DNA from: Bacteroides sp. | GTDB lineage: Bacteria; Bacteroidota; Bacteroidia; Bacteroidales; Bacteroidaceae | Reading direction: 5' to 3' | Assembly: GCA_021202275.1 (NCBI GenBank) | Contig: JAJQDI010000018.1 | Location: forward strand, 140,516-204,515 | Length of the DNA: 64,000 bases | Shown here: piece after piece, positions 20,074-63,730 of the stretch | Layout: the number at the start of each line of letters is the position of its first letter | Position numbering within the stretch: position 1 is the stretch's first letter | Position numbers and translations under genes: made by a program | Notes under the pieces: generated by a model | What the model was told of the DNA's origin: nothing | The model's database searches: none | Seen by the model: only the letters and a program-made list of their open reading frames with translations

Positions 20074-20156
20074 ATTTTAAAACCACAGGAGTTTTAAAAT
20101 CACTTATAAGATTTGCCCCTGATCTCTTCCGGATACGGAAAGGATCAGGGGCAAAT
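20074..20156. terminator. Tandem hairpins after the ferredoxin gene
   Basis: The first hairpin is ATTTTAAAAC/GTTTTAAAAT (20074-20083 with 20091-20100, 7-nt loop). The second is ATTTGCCCCTGATC with its complement (20111-20124, 20143-20156), with an inner TTCCG/CGGAA stem. Both are perfect. The second lacks a long T run, so it may act as an mRNA stabiliser as well as a terminator. Confidence 0.6.
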
Positions 20157-32210: not shown

Positions 32211-32567
32211 ATGGATTTAATCAAAATTGCAGAAGAAGCATTTGCTACCGGCAAACAACATCCTCAGTTCAAGGCCGGTGACACTGTTACCGTTGCATAC
32301 CGTATTATTGAAGGTAACAAAGAACGTGTACAGCTGTACCGTGGCGTTGTTATCAAAATTGCCGGTCACGGAGATAAGAAACGTTTTACCGTACGTAAAA
32401 TGTCAGGAACTGTAGGTGTAGAAAGAATTTTCCCTCTGGAATCACCCGCTATCGATAAGATTGAAGTGAACAAGATTGGTAAAGTACGTCGTGCCAAATT
32501 GTACTATCTTCGCGCTCTTACCGGTAAAAAAGCAAGAATTAAAGAAAAACGCTTTGCCAACAAGTAA
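32211..32567 (+). CDS. rplS: 50S ribosomal protein L19
   Basis: 118 residues. Seen: [55 protein letters not shown] and [21 protein letters not shown], all diagnostic of L19, which lies at the 30S-50S interface. Length is normal. Monocistronic here: own promoter and a strong terminator directly after, without the rpsP/trmD neighbours seen in many bacteria. Confidence 0.98.
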
Positions 32568-32589
32568 TTGCTGGACAGGCAAGACAAAT

Positions 32590-32626
32590 AAAAAAGAAGG
32601 GACTTCTCGGAAGTCCCTTCTTTTTT
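32590..32626 (+). terminator. rplS terminator
   Basis: Perfect 16-bp stem AAAAAAGAAGGGACTT / AAGTCCCTTCTTTTTT with a 5-nt loop, ending in T6. Confidence 0.92.
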
Positions 32627-32696
32627 GTCCATACTTTCAAAGGCCATTCTCCAAATTATAGTATACAGGCCACACCCTTATACAGAGGATAGATCG

Positions 32697-32900
32697 TCAA
32701 AGAACTCTCCTCTCCCGGTTTGTATGATCTACGCTGATCTGCGCAACTGTCTGGATGCTGCATTCCCCGGGAGAAAATAACCAGGTAATTTCAAGGATAC
32801 CCTCATAAGTAATACGGCCACCTGCATAGTGAATAAAGTCACACTTCTCCCCACCTTTCCACTCTCCTTTATAAAAAACATGGAAGTATGATTCGGCCAT
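32697..32900 (-). CDS. Possible small hypothetical protein
   Basis: A 67-codon frame from the ATG at 32900 (MAESYFHVFYKGEWKGGEK). It has no motif I know and no clear ribosome site. It is listed because it is the only plausible ORF in the 785-bp gap between rplS and the fimbrillin gene; it may be chance. Confidence 0.2.
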   Translation of the reverse strand: MAESYFHVFYKGEWKGGEKCDFIHYAGGRITYEGILEITWLFSPGECSIQTVAQISVDHTNRERRVL

Positions 32901-33130
32901 GTATATACAGAAAAACATTTCTTCTATTCCTTCTCTTTACCTGCTGTCCGCACCAAACAACGGAAGTATTCCTGTATCCGGAAATCAAAAACCCTACTTA
33001 TAATTGAAAAGATAAGTTAAAACAAAGCCGATAACAGATAGAATCCTTTCTCTCATTGCCACTACAGATAGCAGAACAACACTCAAAACACAATATTTGT
33101 TAAAGTTACATCCCCCTTCTAATGATTCAT

Positions 33131-33161
33131 TTTGATGAATAGGAACAACAAATTATATTTG
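33131..33161 (+). promoter_or_regulatory. Promoter of the fimbrial operon
   Basis: TTTG (33131-33134), 19 nt, TATATTTG (33154-33161): exact consensus. The mRNA leader before the fimbrillin ATG would be about 185 nt and contains a 19-codon mini-ORF. Confidence 0.8.
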
Positions 33162-33233
33162 CGCAGATAAAAATACTTGAAATTTCTATACTTAACTTAA
33201 AATTTATATAAAAACATCCATAAATCAGAGGTT

Positions 33234-33293
33234 ATGAAAAGACTTATTCTAAGTATGGCAACAACCATTTTTGATCTGCACGATCCATTTTAG
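33234..33293 (+). CDS. Mini-ORF in the fimbrial leader
   Basis: ATG to TAG, 19 residues, beginning MKRLILSMATTIF and then diverging to a short charged tail. The start resembles a truncated signal peptide. It may be a regulatory leader, the remnant of a deleted fimbrillin gene, or chance. Confidence 0.25.
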   Translation: MKRLILSMATTIFDLHDPF

Positions 33294-33352
33294 AATTCCC
33301 GGTAAAATCCATATAACTGCATAAAATTTCAAACTACTTAATTTGAATAAAA

Positions 33353-34702
33353 ATGAAAATCAAATCGTTTATCGCATTGTTTGCCGCCGGTTTGTTAACG
33401 GCTTCTTGTAGCAACGATAAGAATGAAACGCCTGTGATCCCGACCCATGAAAAAGCTGTAGTAAGGGTTACGGTAGATGCTGCCAGTTTCAGTACAAGAG
33501 TTACATTCCCGGGCAATACTCCTACCAGCCAGGAAGTACCTCTATACAACTATGCCATATTGGTATTTAACGAGAACCAGATATTGGAATACATCGAGCC
33601 TGTATCGATCTACACCGCTCAGGACCAGACCATCCTGGACCCCACCCAAACCCCCATCACCTCTGAGTTCGAAGTAACCCTGGGTACCAAATATTTCTAT
33701 GTAGTAGCCAACGTCCCCGTCAGCGAACTGATGAGCAATCAGGATCAGTTCTCTCCCGATCAGAATGTACTGGTACAAGGTATCAAAGAGTATGTCCTGG
33801 AACTGGATGAGGTGGATCAGATCATCGGATATCTCAAATCCGACACCCAGGCTAATCCCAATCCCAAAAACCGTGGATTCATGATGACAACTCTGGGAGG
33901 CCTTACCACAGTACGTATCCATGTACATAAAGACGACGGTACCAATACAGTTAAATTGACACTGGGACGTGCCATGGCTAAAGTCGCTGTGAGAAATGCT
34001 CTTAAAACATCCACACAAGACCAATTGTATGGCACACTTGAAAATATGGAATACAAGGTAGGACACAATCCTAAGAAGATGTATGTAGTACAGCATTACC
34101 ACAGAGATGCCAGCGACGTATTGATTACCCCTAATTACGAAGATGACAAAGTAGATCCCAATGCTTATTTTGGTTCCCTGGAAGATTACCAGAGCGCGGA
34201 AGATGGCTCCAATACCTACACCTACTGTCTGGAAAATGCAAATAAGATCCCGAAACATGGAAATGCCAGTGTAGTTTATATCAAAGGAAAGTTCATTCCT
34301 CATGATCAATATATACTGGACGGAACCTCAAGTGATCTGGTAAACGGGACTTTCTGGCGTATCAAAAATACGGATCCGAATGACCCCATTAAATACACAG
34401 AAGGTTTTTATGCAAACCAACCAAGTGTCGCAAGCAATCAGGAAGCAGTAGAGTATAAGAATGGTATCTGTTATTACACCCTGTACCTGGAAGATGAAGA
34501 TGCTATAGATGATAAATACACGGTGAAAAGAAATTCGTTCTATAAGGTCTCCATCACCAAAGTAAGTAATGCAGGCGAACCCAGCGACGATGAAGAAGAG
34601 TTGATCCCGGAACCGGAAACCCCACTGGATGGAAGCGGATTGGTAGAAGCTACCATCACACTGATACCCTGGGATGAGATTGAGCAGGATGGAGAGATCT
34701 GA
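33353..34702 (+). CDS. Major fimbrial subunit, Mfa1/FimA-like fimbrillin lipoprotein
   Basis: 449 residues. Lipoprotein signal MKIKSFIALFAAGLLTASC, so it is carried to the outer membrane as a lipoprotein. An N-terminal beta-sandwich follows, with VVRVTVDAASFSTRVTFPG containing the Arg where gingipain-like proteases release the N-terminal strand in Porphyromonas. A second beta-sandwich carries LGRAMAKVAVRNAL, the typical RAxAKV motif of fimbrillins. The C-terminus NSFYKVSITKVSN...ATITLIPWDEIEQDGEI fits the donor strand. First gene of a four-gene operon and, being followed by a strong hairpin, likely the most abundant product. Confidence 0.88.
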   Translation: MKIKSFIALFAAGLLTASCSNDKNETPVIPTHEKAVVRVTVDAASFSTRVTFPGNTPTSQEVPLYNYAILVFNENQILEYIEPVSIYTAQDQTILDPTQTPITSEFEVTLGTKYFYVVANVPVSELMSNQDQFSPDQNVLVQGIKEYVLELDEVDQIIGYLKSDTQANPNPKNRGFMMTTLGGLTTVRIHVHKDDGTNTVKLTLGRAMAKVAVRNALKTSTQDQLYGTLENMEYKVGHNPKKMYVVQHYHRDASDVLITPNYEDDKVDPNAYFGSLEDYQSAEDGSNTYTYCLENANKIPKHGNASVVYIKGKFIPHDQYILDGTSSDLVNGTFWRIKNTDPNDPIKYTEGFYANQPSVASNQEAVEYKNGICYYTLYLEDEDAIDDKYTVKRNSFYKVSITKVSNAGEPSDDEEELIPEPETPLDGSGLVEATITLIPWDEIEQDGEI

Positions 34703-34723
34703 TCCTGGCATGTAAATAACCCG

Positions 34724-34761
34724 GGTAGAGTTCCGGGACTTCTACTTCCCGGAACTCTACC
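34724..34761 (+). terminator. Hairpin between the fimbrillin and anchor genes (partial terminator)
   Basis: Perfect 15-bp stem GGTAGAGTTCCGGGA with its complement and an 8-nt loop, then CTTTTGCT. It sits within an operon, so it probably acts as a leaky terminator or a 3' stabiliser that keeps the major subunit in excess over the minor ones. Confidence 0.7.
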
Positions 34762-34802
34762 TTTTGCTATTTATCCTGAAAAGAGATTTAGACAGAGACA
34801 AA

Positions 34803-35792
34803 ATGAATACTCGCTTTATATTAAGATCTCAGTGGATCAGTTGCATCCTTGTATGTTTCTTTTTAAGCAATTGTATTTCGGAGAACTACGAGGATTGCGA
34901 ACCCACCGGATCTGCCCTGGATTTTTCCTTGCAGTTTATCTATGATTATAATGAACAGCGAGTCGATCTTTTTGAAAAAGAAGTAGAATACATAGATATT
35001 TACCTTTTCAATGAAGAGAGAAAATTCATACAAAGATCAGGGATATATGTGTCGGAACTTACAGACAATATGCTTGCCATGGATCTGCCCGAAGGCACCT
35101 ATACAGCTGTTATCTGGGGGAATACGCATGCTCCACAGTTCTATCTGCCAGACGATCAGGATCTGGAAAGCATCAGCGAACTTTACCTGTCTCTCAACGC
35201 CGAGGACGATGTGGTAAACAGCGAATTGCCTACACTGTTTCACGGAAAAGAGACCTTTACCATAGAAGATAAGGAAGGAAAACAGATCTGCCCGGTCCAT
35301 CTATCCAGAAATACCAAAATCGTCCGCTTCGTCTTTTCGGGTATGCAATACCCTATTTACACACTGGGTGAGATCAACCAGCAGGTAGTACTGGCAGGAA
35401 CCAACGGAGAATACTCCTATGACAACCAAACAGAAGATTCGGAACGTACGATCCTCTATATGCCTGTCTCAGAAACACCCAGCAACAGGAACTACGATCT
35501 GCTGGTAACTTTCCATACCTTACAGATCAGAGAGAACACCCCTCTGCTGGTGCGCTTGTGGGATACACGTACAGAACTACAACCCATACTGGAAGAAGAT
35601 CTGTTGCCTCATTTGCTGAAAAACACAGAGCCTGAAGATGTTTCAGAATACCTGAAATATACCCATGAATTTACCCTTGAACTGGAGCTCGAAGAGATAG
35701 AAGGTGGCTATGTAGTAACCCGAATAGAGCCCATCAATTGGTCCGAGATACATGAAGGCTGGGAAGTGATCACTCCTCCGGGAGAGATATAA
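34803..35792 (+). CDS. FimB/Mfa2-like fimbrial anchor lipoprotein
   Basis: 329 residues from the ATG at 34803 (MNTRFILRSQ); the track's earlier start lies inside the intergenic sequence. Lipobox FFLSNC. The N-terminal domain follows the FimB/Mfa2 pattern: LDFSLQFIYDYNEQRVDLFE, YIDIYLFNEERKFIQ, LPEGTYTAVIWGN. A second sandwich domain ends in FTLELELEEIEGGY. In Porphyromonas the equivalent protein caps and anchors the fibre at the cell surface and limits its length. Its position directly after the major subunit is the usual one. Confidence 0.85.
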   Translation: MNTRFILRSQWISCILVCFFLSNCISENYEDCEPTGSALDFSLQFIYDYNEQRVDLFEKEVEYIDIYLFNEERKFIQRSGIYVSELTDNMLAMDLPEGTYTAVIWGNTHAPQFYLPDDQDLESISELYLSLNAEDDVVNSELPTLFHGKETFTIEDKEGKQICPVHLSRNTKIVRFVFSGMQYPIYTLGEINQQVVLAGTNGEYSYDNQTEDSERTILYMPVSETPSNRNYDLLVTFHTLQIRENTPLLVRLWDTRTELQPILEEDLLPHLLKNTEPEDVSEYLKYTHEFTLELELEEIEGGYVVTRIEPINWSEIHEGWEVITPPGEI

Positions 35793-35817
35793 TGTGTAAC
35801 CCTTCAATGGAATAAAC

Positions 35818-37959
35818 ATGAAATACCGCTTTATCTTATATCTACTCATTCTCCTGTGCTCCTCCTGTTCTGAGGATCAGACTGGGATTCCGACCGGTCC
35901 GGATACGGGAACCGGCGAGGAGCTTACATTCCATTTCCACTTATCTGTACCCGGACTGACCGAAGTGGAGACCAGAGGGATGGCCGACAATGAATATACG
36001 ATCCGTGAAATAGACATCCTGGTCTTTCACGATGATGAATACCTGCGGCTCGCATCTGGCAGAGACCTGGTGAAGACAGCCAACGGATATAAATTTGAGA
36101 CGAATCTGTTATCTACGACTAAAGAAGTAAGGTTGTTTTTTATAGCCAATATAAGTGCCACCCTCCATGAAAATATAGACAGGCTGGAAGAACTGAATGT
36201 ACCTGTAAGTTCCGCATAGGCCAAGGAGTTGGCCTATGTACGTTACGAGAACTTTATATCCAGAAGAGATGTTTTTCCTATGTCGGGAGAATTGAGACTG
36301 AACGGTCTACAGGAGAATATGGTACTTCCCGAGATCAAAATGATGCGCGCTTTTGCGCGGCTAGACGTTTTGGCACACGAAAACACAGCCAATCGTTTCC
36401 AATTGGAGAAGGCCACGGCCTACCGCATGAACGATCTTTTTCAGATTGCTCCTGATGACGACGCATTCAGCAGCGAGACAAACGGGAATTACATCCGCGT
36501 ATCCCGCCCCAGTGTTCCGACAGATGCAAAAAAAGAGTTAACGTCTCAGGTCTATTCCGCATCAGGTAATAAGATCACTCATATATACCTTCCGGAAAGT
36601 AAAGCCTGCGATCCGGTAACAGAACAGCCTACCTGTCTGATCATTCAGGGAAAATACCAGAGCAATAGTACTCCCTCTTATTACAGGGTGGATCTGGGCC
36701 CGAAAGGATCTGCCGGAGAGGTGATACGGAATCACAAGTATACACTCACCATCACCAGTGTCACAGGACCGGGAAAATCAACGATAGATGAAGCACTTCT
36801 GGAAGCGTCCGAAGATATTAACACTTATATCATCTGGGAAGAGGACGGTTCGAATACCATATACGATAAGGACGGAAAATATATACAGACAGACAAACGT
36901 ACTTTCTCGCTCCATTTTGCCAGAGCAGCTATGGATACAGTAAGTATAGAGACCAATCTTACCGATACATATACACTGGAATGGGCAGACGAAAACGGTG
37001 ATCCCACCGGAAGTACACGGATCGGTCCCGGTGAAAGTATGTCTGACGCGGAGTTCAAAGTAAGAATATCCCCGGACGGAAAAACCATCTATGCCACTGC
37101 TTTGAAAGAGAATGAGGGCACTACCCATAAGACCCGGAAGCTACTGGGCCGGGTGGGAAATATTTTGTTCACCATGACCATTGATCAGGGTACGCGCGCA
37201 GAGAGAAGTTATGTAAAACTATACAATCCGTTGGGGTTGAACGGAGATCTGGGAGATGAGGTCATGAATGCCATAAGCAGTGATCCCATGTCAGGTTCAA
37301 TGCTTAGAGACCTGATCCGGAATGAAGAATGGTTCGGAGTCAATGGTATAGTTGCGTTTGACGGCTTCAAGATCTCCGGCCAGAACTACGAATTGCCCAT
37401 CACAAACTATCTGCTTCGGATGTTTGATGTAGTTCTAATAGGAGATGGTACTGTCGATAGAACAGATGCTACAACCACTTCTTTTATCAAACAATGGCTG
37501 GAAGATACGAGTGGTCACAATAAAGTTTTAGTAGTTTATACACGCAATATGAATCTGGTAGAAGCATTAGGTACAAGCACAGTAACCACATACGATGTAT
37601 CCTATCGGATCAGTGAAGATGCGACCGATACTTTCCTGAAAGGTCCTTTTGGGGAAGTCACAGCAAATGCCACCATCTCTACTTCCTATTCTACTACCTA
37701 CAATTTCATGAGCAGAGCAGCTAACAGTCACCTGACACCACTGCTTACAGATGCAAGTGGAAACAACATGGTAATAGCAGCCGATCTAAACAAAAAGGTA
37801 CTGTATGTGTCAGATTATTATATATTTAATGACAGTTCGGGGCTGCTGACAGGAAACGGTAAAATAGAGACGGACTTAGATCGCTTGTTCGCAAATATCT
37901 GGGCATGGATCGCTGAAACAGTATTAGGAGATATCTACGATCCGGAAGTGGCACGCTGA
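35818..37959 (+). pseudogene. Fimbrillin-like lipoprotein with C-terminal alpha/beta domain, interrupted by an in-frame TAG
   Basis: The track splits this into 133- and 576-residue ORFs, but both lie in one frame; only TAG at 36217-36219 separates them (NVPVSSA, stop, AKELAYVRYENF). The whole reads as a 713-codon gene aligning with the next gene. It has lipobox LLCSSC; fimbrillin-like domain with MMRAFARLDVLAHEN; BACON-like beta segment (TFSLHFARAAMDTVSIETN); and C-terminal domain (GLNGDLGDEVMN, FDVVLIGDGT, LFANIWAWIAETVLGD). The TAG lies in the left arm of a perfect stem-loop. It could be a recent null allele or a readthrough site. A TTG restart at 36229 would lack a signal peptide and so could not be exported normally. 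Confidence 0.82.
36215..36238 (+). promoter_or_regulatory. Perfect stem-loop spanning the in-frame TAG
   Basis: CATAGGCCAA, loop GGAG, TTGGCCTATG: 10 bp without mismatch, with the stop codon inside the left arm. It may be a readthrough signal or simply a palindrome perfected by the same mutation that made the stop. Confidence 0.55.
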
Positions 37960-38010
37960 TACCACCCGGAGAAATTTGTAACAGAAGTAAAGACAATCCT
38001 TATTGGCCAT

Positions 38011-40182
38011 ATGAAAAAGGTATTTTTATACATATTAGGTTGCATATCTTTTTTGATAGGTTTCTCCTGTTCCGAAGACCTGAAAGGGGAGGCACCCGGA
38101 ACTGAGGAAGAACAGGAGATCACTCTTTCCTTTACGCTGGCAGCCGATGCTATCCGGACCAGAGGAATGAGCGACCTGAACAGTAATGAGAACAAGATAG
38201 AAGAATTGGACGTACTTATCTTCCATCAGGATGCTTTGTACGAGAGACAGACATTTCCTTTCCATGGGAATACCGGAAGTATATCGATAAAGACTGTGGC
38301 AACCACAGAGGAAGCGACGATATGGTTCATTGCCAATTCACACACCGCCCTTTCAGCGGCTGGCCTCAGCAAGGGTGATACCAAACAGGAGGTAAAAAAA
38401 GCGCTGACCGCGGAATTTACCTCCGCAGGTACCGTCAACGGTCTATTCCCGATGTGGGGCGAATCTGTCTTTCTCAACGGGATCAGTCAGCAATCCGTAC
38501 AGACAGAGACTGCGGATGTCAGTCTGATCCGGGCATTGGCCAAGATAAATGTGAAAATAGATGATGCCGTCATATTACCGAGTGGCGTAATGGATTTTAA
38601 GTTATTGAGCATCCAGGTATTCCAGGCAAACGACCGGATACAGATCATCCCGGATGACCTAGGAGATGGCACCGAAGCCAATAAATACAAAGTATTCACT
38701 CCCAGTATTCCCGAGATGGCAGTTGCGGATATAACTACGGAAACGATCCTGAGCGGAGACGGGAAGAAGGCTGGAAACCTTTACATTCCCGAATCTTTGG
38801 ATGCGGCTACCATGTATGAAGAAAACGCGACATGGATCATTGTAGAGGCTCTCTACGACACCAATCAGCAGTCCAGTTATTATCGCCTGGATCTGAAAGA
38901 TAATAGCGGTACCCCCTTGCCTTTTCTGCGGAATAAGAATTATACGCTGAACATCAAAGAAGTCACAGGGGCAGGGTCAACCGACCCGGATGGTGCCATG
39001 CCCTACGATCTGGTAGCTTCTGTCCTGGTCTGGGACGAACTTGAGATCGGAGGAACGGAAGATTACATGACCATTGACTCACAAGTGATAGATCTGCATT
39101 TTTACAAGAATTCGACCAAAACCCTATCTGTCAGATCGGACCTCAACCTCTATACCGTACAGTTCTGTAACCAGGATGGAGACATCCTGCCCGGCACCCA
39201 GCCCGGAGAGTTGATCCTGAGTGACCGTTTCCGGGTAGAGATAGAAGACGATGGCAAGACCCTACGGGCCAGCGCACGGGAAAACAATGAAGACGATACG
39301 GTTCATACGGAATATGTACGGGTTACTTCGGGCAACATACAGTTCCTGGTAACGATCAACCAGGGTACCCGTAAGATGCGGGATTATGTAACTATCTTTA
39401 ATATTACAGGTCTGCACGGCAATCTGGGAGATGAAGTGCTCAACATAGATATCTCTTTCGAAAACAATCCTCTGAGGGTATATGGCAGAGGACTTCAGGA
39501 AATCCTGAAGAATGAGAATAATTTCGGATGGGAAGGAATCGTTCCTTTCGAAGGATTTATCATCGCAGGATTACCTTTCCAGACTAAGTTCGTACCCGCT
39601 CTGCTGGATATGTTCAATGTGGTATATATGCCGGTCGTCCCGGAATCCACCAGCGAAACAGGAAACGCAGTATCGGAAGAAGAAGCGAAATACATTGTAG
39701 ACTGGCTCGAACAGGATAAGAGCCGGATACTGGTGATCCAAAGTGACCTGGGTTCCAACCGCGTCATTCTGGACTATCTGGGGATCAATGTCAATTCTTA
39801 CAGACCTTTAATCACTACGCAATACATATTTCCGGACCGTGCTCCCCGTGCCATTATAAACGGACCTTTCGGCGTATTAGAGGATCCTATCTCTGTAGCA
39901 GGACCTGGGAACCAGGCCTACGTAAGTACTGTGGAACATCCGGAGATCACACCCGTCATAGTCAACAATACCGACGAAACACAAATGGTAGTGGGTATCG
40001 ATATGGAACGACGGATCGTTCTCTGCAGCACCATGTGGCTACACACCCGGACAATTGACGGAGGGGTACTTACCGGAAACGGGACTATCAACAATGGACA
40101 TGATAGATTGATGGCTAATATCTGGGCATGGATCGCGGAAACTGTACTGGGAGATGAACACGACCCGGACATCACATTTTAA
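38011..40182 (+). CDS. Fimbrillin-like lipoprotein with C-terminal alpha/beta domain (putative minor/tip subunit)
   Basis: 723 residues, the intact paralog of the preceding gene. Lipobox ISFLIGFSC. Residues about 30-350 are fimbrillin-like (RTRGMSDLN, ELDVLIFHQDALYE, LIRALAKINVKIDD, LYIPESLD, YTLNIKEVTGAG). Residues about 355-460 form a BACON-like Ig segment (SQVIDLHFYKNSTKTLSVRS to FLVTINQGTRK). Residues about 465-723 have alternating strands and helices (FNVVYMPVV, EEAKYIVDWLEQDKSRILVI, then RLMANIWAWIAETVLGD), suggesting a Rossmann/GATase-like fold. I know of no characterised fimbrillin with such a tail. By position (last in the operon) and size it may be a tip adhesin. It ends 17 bp from a convergent gene. 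Confidence 0.78.
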   Translation: MKKVFLYILGCISFLIGFSCSEDLKGEAPGTEEEQEITLSFTLAADAIRTRGMSDLNSNENKIEELDVLIFHQDALYERQTFPFHGNTGSISIKTVATTEEATIWFIANSHTALSAAGLSKGDTKQEVKKALTAEFTSAGTVNGLFPMWGESVFLNGISQQSVQTETADVSLIRALAKINVKIDDAVILPSGVMDFKLLSIQVFQANDRIQIIPDDLGDGTEANKYKVFTPSIPEMAVADITTETILSGDGKKAGNLYIPESLDAATMYEENATWIIVEALYDTNQQSSYYRLDLKDNSGTPLPFLRNKNYTLNIKEVTGAGSTDPDGAMPYDLVASVLVWDELEIGGTEDYMTIDSQVIDLHFYKNSTKTLSVRSDLNLYTVQFCNQDGDILPGTQPGELILSDRFRVEIEDDGKTLRASARENNEDDTVHTEYVRVTSGNIQFLVTINQGTRKMRDYVTIFNITGLHGNLGDEVLNIDISFENNPLRVYGRGLQEILKNENNFGWEGIVPFEGFIIAGLPFQTKFVPALLDMFNVVYMPVVPESTSETGNAVSEEEAKYIVDWLEQDKSRILVIQSDLGSNRVILDYLGINVNSYRPLITTQYIFPDRAPRAIINGPFGVLEDPISVAGPGNQAYVSTVEHPEITPVIVNNTDETQMVVGIDMERRIVLCSTMWLHTRTIDGGVLTGNGTINNGHDRLMANIWAWIAETVLGDEHDPDITF

Positions 40183-40199
40183 ATGATCCGTATGCAGAT

Positions 40200-41392
40200 T
40201 CACTCCTGAGAAACCCCAGGAGCAGCATATTCTACGGATCGCTGTGTAAATTTATCCACGATCAGAGCCAATGCCCCATCGCCCGTCACATTACATGCCG
40301 TACCGAAGCTATCCTGCAAAGCGAAGATAGTAATGAGTAAAGCCGTGCCTGCTTCGTCAAATCCCAATACCGCGATAATAAGTCCAAGAGAGGCCAGCAC
40401 GGTTCCACCGGGTACTCCGGGAGCACCAATAGCAAAGAATCCGAGCAACAGGATGAAGACAATCATAGTACCGGCATCGGACAGGGTACCATAGAGCAAT
40501 TGGGAAACGGTCATCACAAAGAAAACCTCCGTCAGGATAGAGCCACAGAGATGAATGTTGGCAAAAAGAGGAACGGTTATGTCTATGGTTTCTTTCCGGA
40601 TCATACCGGTCTTCCCCGCGCATTCAAGAGCCACGCCCAATGTTGCCGCGGAAGACATGGTACCCAGAGCAGTCAGATAGGCGGGTCCGTACTGCTTCAA
40701 CACCTTCCAGCCGTTACGTTTGGAGTAGAAAGAAGCCACCAGATAGAGCAACCCCAGCCAGATATAGTGACAAAGGACCACCACACCAATCACCGAGAGA
40801 AAGACAGGCAACTGGTGGGTGATGGCCCCTTCATAACTCAGTACACAGAAATTGGCAGCAACAAAAAAAAAGGAAGCACAGGCAATAAGATCTTCCGCAC
40901 CAGGGAAAGCACCATCTCCTGAAAAGAGTGCAGAAGACGGATCACGTTCCGGCTGTCTGTCCACGCCGCGGACAAGCCGACAAAAACAGATAAGACCAGA
41001 GCAGACATCACCCCCATCACCGGAGGGATCTCCAGGATAAAGACCTGCACCGGCAAACTACGCAGCCCTTCCGTAACGGGAGAGATGTTCAACCAGGGAA
41101 TCACCTCCGTACCCACCGCCATACCGAAAAAAGCAGCCCCTATAGAAGAAAAATACGCCAGAGCAAACGCAAAAAGTAAGATCCGGGAGGCTTTACTTTT
41201 CAACGAAGCGATAGAGGGAGCTACAAATCCGAAAATGATCAGTGGTACCAGGAAAAAGATCACCTGCCCACTGATCTGCCTCACAGGCAGGATGATCTTC
41301 ATGACCGGTTCTCCGGCAGTTAAGCCCAACCCAATTCCTACCGCTACTGCCAGGAGCAACTGTACCACTGTATTCTTTATTACTTTCTTCAT
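40200..41392 (-). pseudogene. Dicarboxylate/amino acid:cation symporter (DAACS), frameshifted at a T9 tract
   Basis: Two overlapping minus-strand ORFs (41392-40838 and 40964-40200) are the halves of one DAACS/SLC1-type sodium or proton symporter of about 396 codons. The first half has IFFLVPLIIFGFVAPSIASL and ends LPVLPFF. The second resumes with FVAANFCVLSYEG, the re-entrant loop LTALGTMSSAATLGVALEC and GFFAIGAPGVPGGT, and the substrate-site region DSFGTACNVTGDGALALIV. The join is a run of nine T (40863-40871 on the plus strand). Seven or ten T would give a continuous LPFFVAANF-type reading. It is either a null allele, a slippage-switchable gene, or a sequencing artefact. Confidence 0.85.
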
Positions 41393-43131: not shown

Positions 43132-43154
43132 GCCCTGCTTCCGGGAAGCAGGGC
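43132..43154 (-). terminator. Terminator of the ROK kinase gene
   Basis: GCCCTGCTT-CCGGG-AAGCAGGGC, 9-bp perfect stem, followed on the minus strand by TGTTTGTTTTA; 29 nt after the stop. Confidence 0.65.
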
Positions 43155-62427: not shown

Positions 62428-63730
62428 TTAACATTCATGCCATGTCCGGAAAGTGAACCTGCCGGTAGAAGAAACAGTTGGCCCGCGTCGAAAGTTCAAT
62501 AAGAACACCAATCCCTGCGACCCGGAAAAACCTGTCGACAGGCCATATAGCATACAGTCCTTTCGCTGCACCCGACCCGCAACATGGTTTATTTCTATTT
62601 CCGGCCCCAATGGTTCCGGGGAACACTTTCTCAGAAAATACAGATAGATACACTATAGCAAAGAGCTTACCGGAGAGTACCCACTGTGTAAAATTAGAAA
62701 CAAAAACGGATTTGAGACGCATCTACTATATAAAAAAGTGATTTTATCTCTCACCATCTCTCACTTTTACATATATCCTTCTGACTACAACCACATTAAA
62801 AAAGTGAGAGATAAAAGTTACATACAATTTATCTATCACTTTTCAGGGTTATCTCTCACCTTTGAGAGGCCACTTCTCACTTTCAGTAGAATTCTGCCAG
62901 AAATCCACAATCCGGTAAGTAGTTTGCTTTCCGGTATCTTTTGCCCAGGTTCTGGCAAAACCTTTCTATCTGTGTCGGCACCCACAGAGACCTGCAAACG
63001 ACAGGATATGTAGTCTGTATCCATCCGTAGATGTATCCGTAGACGGAATCGGATAGCTCGTACCCAGTCTCTTTCCATGAATATACAGATGTATTCCCAA
63101 GGGTAGATCTCTGCTTTTCAGGTAAGAGATATAAGATCCCTCGTTGTGGGACTCAACTCCCTCAACGAGAGACTTAACTCCCTCGTCGTGGGAGTTAAGT
63201 CCCACGACGGGAGACCCACTATATGCCGGTAGGCCGACAGATGATTTCCGGTTACCCGACAGTAGACTTTCAGTATACACGCAGAGGATATGTACATCGT
63301 CAATCAGCGTATCGCCAATCAAAGAGTCATTCGGTACGGACAGCTGACACGAGGCCGGCTCCACACAGGAGAATGAAGGTATTTCCAAATCCCGAAGGAA
63401 CGATCGGCTCCGACCCTGTACATAACAGACTCCCCCAACCTTGTCAACCACACACGCTGAGTTAGTTTCTGCAAAAACGACAAATTCCATCGCAGAAAAG
63501 TATGCGGTAACAGGAAAAGTCCTGTAAGGACTGGTATGTATGAACAGACACGACCGGAATATATCGCCTTACAGAATTTACGCATGGAATGCGTTAGACT
63601 TTCTTCAACTAAAAAGAAGTACCCTACAGGTTGCCTCTCAGGTGACAGATCACCCATCATAAGTGAGAGATAAATTGTATGCTAATTTTATCCATCACTC
63701 AGATATATAGCTGATAACGTGCCTGTTTCC
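62428..63730. repeat. Repeat-rich gene-free region bounded by inverted repeats
   Basis: About 1.3 kb without a credible gene. A 21-nt sequence at 62821-62841 (CATACAATTTATCTATCACT and one base) recurs inverted at 63661-63681 with 1 mismatch, and weaker similarity extends over about 65 nt each side. The motif ATCTCTCAC or its complement occurs at least five times between 62.74 and 62.87 kb and again at the right arm. The ORF-track entries here overlap one another on both strands and show no family features. It may be a decayed mobile element or a repeat array. Confidence 0.55.
63172..63209. repeat. Two overlapping, mutually exclusive hairpins
   Basis: ACTTAACTCCC (63172-63182) pairs perfectly with GGGAGTTAAGT (63190-63200). 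CGTCGTGGGA (63184-63193) pairs perfectly with TCCCACGACG (63200-63209). The middle segment is shared. A related CTCGTTG/CAACGAG stem lies just before, at about 63140-63168. Confidence 0.65.

Follow-up and report, generated by a model that had tools for sequence, protein, structure and literature searches.

An in-frame TAG inside a perfect 10-bp hairpin interrupts a FimD-like tip fimbrillin gene in a Bacteroides type V fimbrial operon

The stretch of Bacteroides sp. DNA analyzed here, 64,000 nucleotides long and referred to as the window, carries a type V fimbrial operon composed of a major fimbrillin, an Mfa2-like anchor, and two tandem FimD-like tip fimbrillins, all on the forward strand. The gene order is that of type V (Mfa1/FimA-type) operons, in which a major fimbrillin precedes an Mfa2/FimB-type anchor and then tip-type fimbrillins. 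The Mfa1-family major fimbrillin (33353-34702; NF038041, 160.7 bits against a cut-off of 130) and the Mfa2-type anchor protein (34803-35792; Pfam PF08842, E 6e-37) are followed by an interrupted tip gene (35818-37959) and an intact paralog of 723 aa (38011-40182) that matches Pfam P_gingi_FimA. The two tip genes are tandem paralogs sharing 35% identity over their full length. Against NF052322, the FimD tip adhesin model with a curated equivalog cut-off of 170 bits, the intact gene scores 83.8 bits and the N-terminal 133 residues of the interrupted one 31 bits; both are therefore FimD-like rather than FimD proper. Further full-length copies of the tip gene lie on contigs 15 and 24 of the same genome. 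Between the major fimbrillin and anchor genes, a perfect 15-bp hairpin followed by TTTT (34724-34761) is a putative terminator or attenuator, through which the ratio of shaft to anchor could be set. Upstream of the operon, a search for an invertible promoter returned just an unconvincing 12-bp imperfect repeat.

Within the interrupted gene, the ATG at 35818, a TAG at 36217-36219 (codon 134), and the downstream open frame up to the TGA at 37957-37959 all lie in one frame, as the initial annotation had stated. When the gene is read through, this TAG is the sole stop in 713 codons, and there is no frameshift. The open reading frame ending at the TAG (35818-36219) encodes a 133-residue product with a lipoprotein-type signal and part of an N-terminal fimbrillin domain. 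A profile built from 12 family members matches the N-terminal domains of PDB 4rdb (profile positions 50-195) and PDB 5dhm (positions 55-195), and the stop falls inside this stretch; the truncated lipoprotein therefore ends within a domain. The remainder of the gene (36220-37959), predicted to be untranslated, keeps its frame open over 579 codons with no second lesion, which suggests that the stop is recent. It retains 36 of the 41 downstream columns that are invariant in other relatives, compared with 36 of 46 family-invariant columns for the intact neighbor. An AlphaFold prediction from the two window paralogs reached a mean pLDDT of 38.7, a confidence too low for use.

The TAG is embedded in a perfect inverted repeat (36215-36238, forward strand) composed of a 5' arm, CATAGGCCAA (36215-36224), a GGAG loop, and a fully complementary 3' arm, TTGGCCTATG (36229-36238), exactly as first described. 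As RNA, these 24 nt fold with -15.1 kcal/mol (z -5.4), and the surrounding 120 nt give a z of -2.7. Perfect stems of at least 10 bp with loops of 3-8 nt occur seven times in the window, compared with 0.43 expected from first-order Markov sequences of the same size, and codon permutation of the interrupted gene yields a 10-bp stem in 1.1% of trials. The stem is thus unusual for the gene, but not for a 64-kb window. Stems at 32590 and 34724 occupy intergenic, terminator-like positions, and two others, each a perfect 10-bp stem, lie at 43132-43154, between genes, and at 20074-20100. Two overlapping, mutually exclusive perfect inverted repeats (63171-63201 and 63184-63209) belong to a region, 63140-63210, of repeated short units within a possible minus-strand ORF, with no Rfam match.

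The coincidence of stem and stop is rarer by chance than the stem alone. Among 1,477 one-step nonsense changes enumerated across seven fimbrial genes, none yields a stem of at least 9 bp around the new stop and three yield a stem of 8 bp, in a test weakened by being run after the feature had been picked out. A stop completing a 10-bp stem is accordingly very rare as a random event, and chance alone may not account for it.

Comparison with relatives places the stop where homologs encode an amino acid. All 11 full-length relatives carry a sense codon (Gln, Glu, Leu, or Ala) at the aligned site; within about 45 nt of it, their perfect stems never exceed 6 bp. The stretch around the site is variable and loosely aligned, and the sense codon is known from these relatives rather than from a strain or ancestor of this very gene. 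The proposed alignment with the adjacent paralog is accordingly valid over the entire gene, though loose around the stop. The residue following the stop, also encoded in the 5' arm, is Ala, compared with Val or Ile in all 11 relatives; the interrupted gene departs from conserved Val/Ile columns at 3 of 18 positions, this Ala included. DNA searches of 60 relatives returned no copy of the gene, and protein searches of 160 genomes of the genus returned no ortholog, the best match being 33%. A GTDB contig scan with the gene, and searches of viral contigs and phages, returned no relative; a second GTDB scan, with a neighboring protein as query, returned one contig only.

Related fimbrillins elsewhere in the genus also carry in-frame TGA, TAA, or TAG codons, at unrelated positions. 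In three species of the genus, a fimbrillin-like gene interrupted by both an in-frame TGA and an in-frame TAG sits on 3.8-4.0 kb of DNA sharing at least 99.9% identity; horizontal transfer seems to have spread a fimbrial gene that was broken beforehand.

The initial annotation had offered two accounts of the TAG, the second being that the structure supports readthrough, so that the full adhesin is made alongside a short secreted form. In such a scheme, the hairpin would stall or remodel the ribosome and let a fraction of ribosomes past the stop. A single stop in a long, well-kept frame, a stable stem, and the presence of Gln tRNAs able to misread UAG, as is usual in bacteria, are consistent with such programmed readthrough. 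So is the base after the stop, a G rather than the U linked to tight termination (PMC5289835). Against it, no suppressor tRNA was found: individual inspection of the 45 tRNA hits from the genome search revealed no CTA anticodon, in an assembly about 95% complete, where a missed tRNA gene is possible but unlikely. Nor is the code reassigned, since TAG ends other long ORFs in the window (5 of 36 in a mechanical count that may include the one studied). Neither the stop nor the stem is conserved in the 11 full-length relatives, and an Rfam search with the hairpin, taken up to E 1, gave no match.

The geometry of the hairpin also argues against readthrough. Known readthrough stimulators sit downstream of the stop. 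Here the first base of the TAG is the third of the 5' arm, which places the arm within the ribosome footprint rather than outside the decoding ribosome. Because the stem starts two bases before the stop, a ribosome with the TAG in its A site would, judging from its general footprint, already have opened the 5' arm, and the stem could not exist at the moment of decoding. The locus resembles hairpin-stimulated stop recoding, such as that by bacterial SECIS elements, in having a stem at an in-frame stop; it differs from them in that the stop is a TAG and lies inside the 5' arm, no dedicated tRNA was found, and the arrangement is not conserved. Also against readthrough, the 133-residue short form ends within its N-terminal domain. 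Hairpin-supported readthrough is therefore extremely unlikely, with the reservation that in a single genome a recent pseudogene and a rarely read-through gene look alike.

A split gene, in which translation restarts internally to produce the portion beyond the stop, is likewise highly improbable. TTG 36229 opens a 576-codon frame with GGAG just 5' of it, but the GGAG abuts the TTG with zero spacing and both lie within the hairpin. Moreover, Bacteroidetes make little use of Shine-Dalgarno sites. One ATG alone, at 36236, is suitably spaced, and it lies in a different frame. A restart product, without a signal peptide, could not reach the pilus.

Alternatively, an error in sequencing, assembly, or consensus calling might have produced the TAG, or it might be a minority variant, with the gene intact in the living population. 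The evidence is a single assembly in 33 contigs, the rest of the gene is undamaged, and a foldback artifact during amplification could complete a stem. We regard this as unlikely: draft assemblies from short reads seldom contain single-base errors, and an erroneous substitution has no better chance than a mutation of completing a 10-bp stem exactly.

The locus is best read as an ordinary broken gene, a tip-adhesin paralog probably pseudogenized recently within a fast-turning-over locus, and not as a readthrough switch. The first tip gene was most likely inactivated by one nonsense mutation at codon 134. Translation would end at the TAG, and the resulting 133-residue lipoprotein fragment would probably be degraded. 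The tip role could then be served by the intact neighbor or by another tip gene of the genome. The hairpin, for its part, most likely has no regulatory role and is at most the reason why the mutation arose.

How the stop arose is a separate matter, in which a template switch competes with an ordinary point mutation only and leaves the pseudogene reading untouched. At most, a polymerase crossing an imperfect inverted repeat would have copied from the nascent strand, with the opposite arm serving briefly as template, and so would have completed the palindrome and written the stop in one step. Such an origin would explain the coincidence of stop and stem with no function for the hairpin, and the result of the nonsense-change test favors it. 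Template switching is an established mechanism in E. coli, in which quasipalindromes are mutational hotspots that become more perfect (PMC7202029), and it has been proposed as a route to perfect stems (PMC8794818). The locus thus resembles the E. coli thyA hotspot and lacZ reporters, where an imperfect inverted repeat is made perfect in one event (PMC7202029), except that the end state alone is seen here. The Ala after the stop fits the copying of more than one base, although it is weak evidence because Val/Ile departures also occur at two other places, and the alignment is loose in this stretch. The first account in the initial annotation, a palindrome-perfecting mutation, stays plausible and statistically suggestive, subject to the post hoc choice of the test. 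Its appeal to the perfection of the stem does not carry over: all three stop bases are paired, so almost any single-base origin would perfect the palindrome, and perfection alone is not evidence. Overall, a template-switch origin is a credible possibility that falls somewhat short of probable. A reversible version, in which the repeat gains and loses the stop by template switching and so slowly switches one of two tip adhesins off and on in part of the population of this lineage, is very unlikely.

Stop mutations in Bacteroidales fimbrial genes are already on record. In Porphyromonas gingivalis, fimB of strain ATCC 33277, an anchor/terminator gene, is nonsense-mutated (PMC3436787) and mfa1 carries stop mutations in three strains (PMC8313007); in Parabacteroides distasonis CL03T12C09, a fimE-like gene has a nonsense mutation (PMC9409006). 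As in fimB of P. gingivalis ATCC 33277/381, a type V accessory gene is silenced by one nonsense codon in an otherwise intact operon (PMC3436787, PMC8313007). There, the anchor gene is struck and the fimbriae are overlong, whereas here a tip-type gene is affected, an intact tip paralog adjoins it, the stop lies inside a stem, and the case is known from sequence alone. The P. distasonis case is similar in that a tip-complex gene of a gut commensal carries a single nonsense codon in one strain (PMC9409006), but other strains were compared there, in contrast to the single genome here.

The syntenic site of a sister species reveals how rapidly this locus changes. The flanks are conserved, with DNA identity of 92% toward rplS and 91% toward the kinase. 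Between them the sister species has a different cassette of fimbrial genes, which ends with a single unrelated tip-type protein of 1,088 residues, indicating that the fimbrial and tip genes here turn over quickly. The operon at 32567-40200 is wholly different from that of the sister species and behaves like an exchangeable fimbrial cassette.

The interrupted gene is thus most likely an ordinary tip-adhesin paralog that broke recently, and its mutational signature is interesting though unproven. It adds one more case of fast pilus-tip gene loss and exchange in gut Bacteroidales. For adhesin repertoires drawn from genomes, it marks a place where an annotator could call two genes although one broken gene exists. 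If the stop were shown to have arisen on an imperfect palindrome, the locus would show, in nature, a surface protein inactivated by a hairpin-guided mutation.
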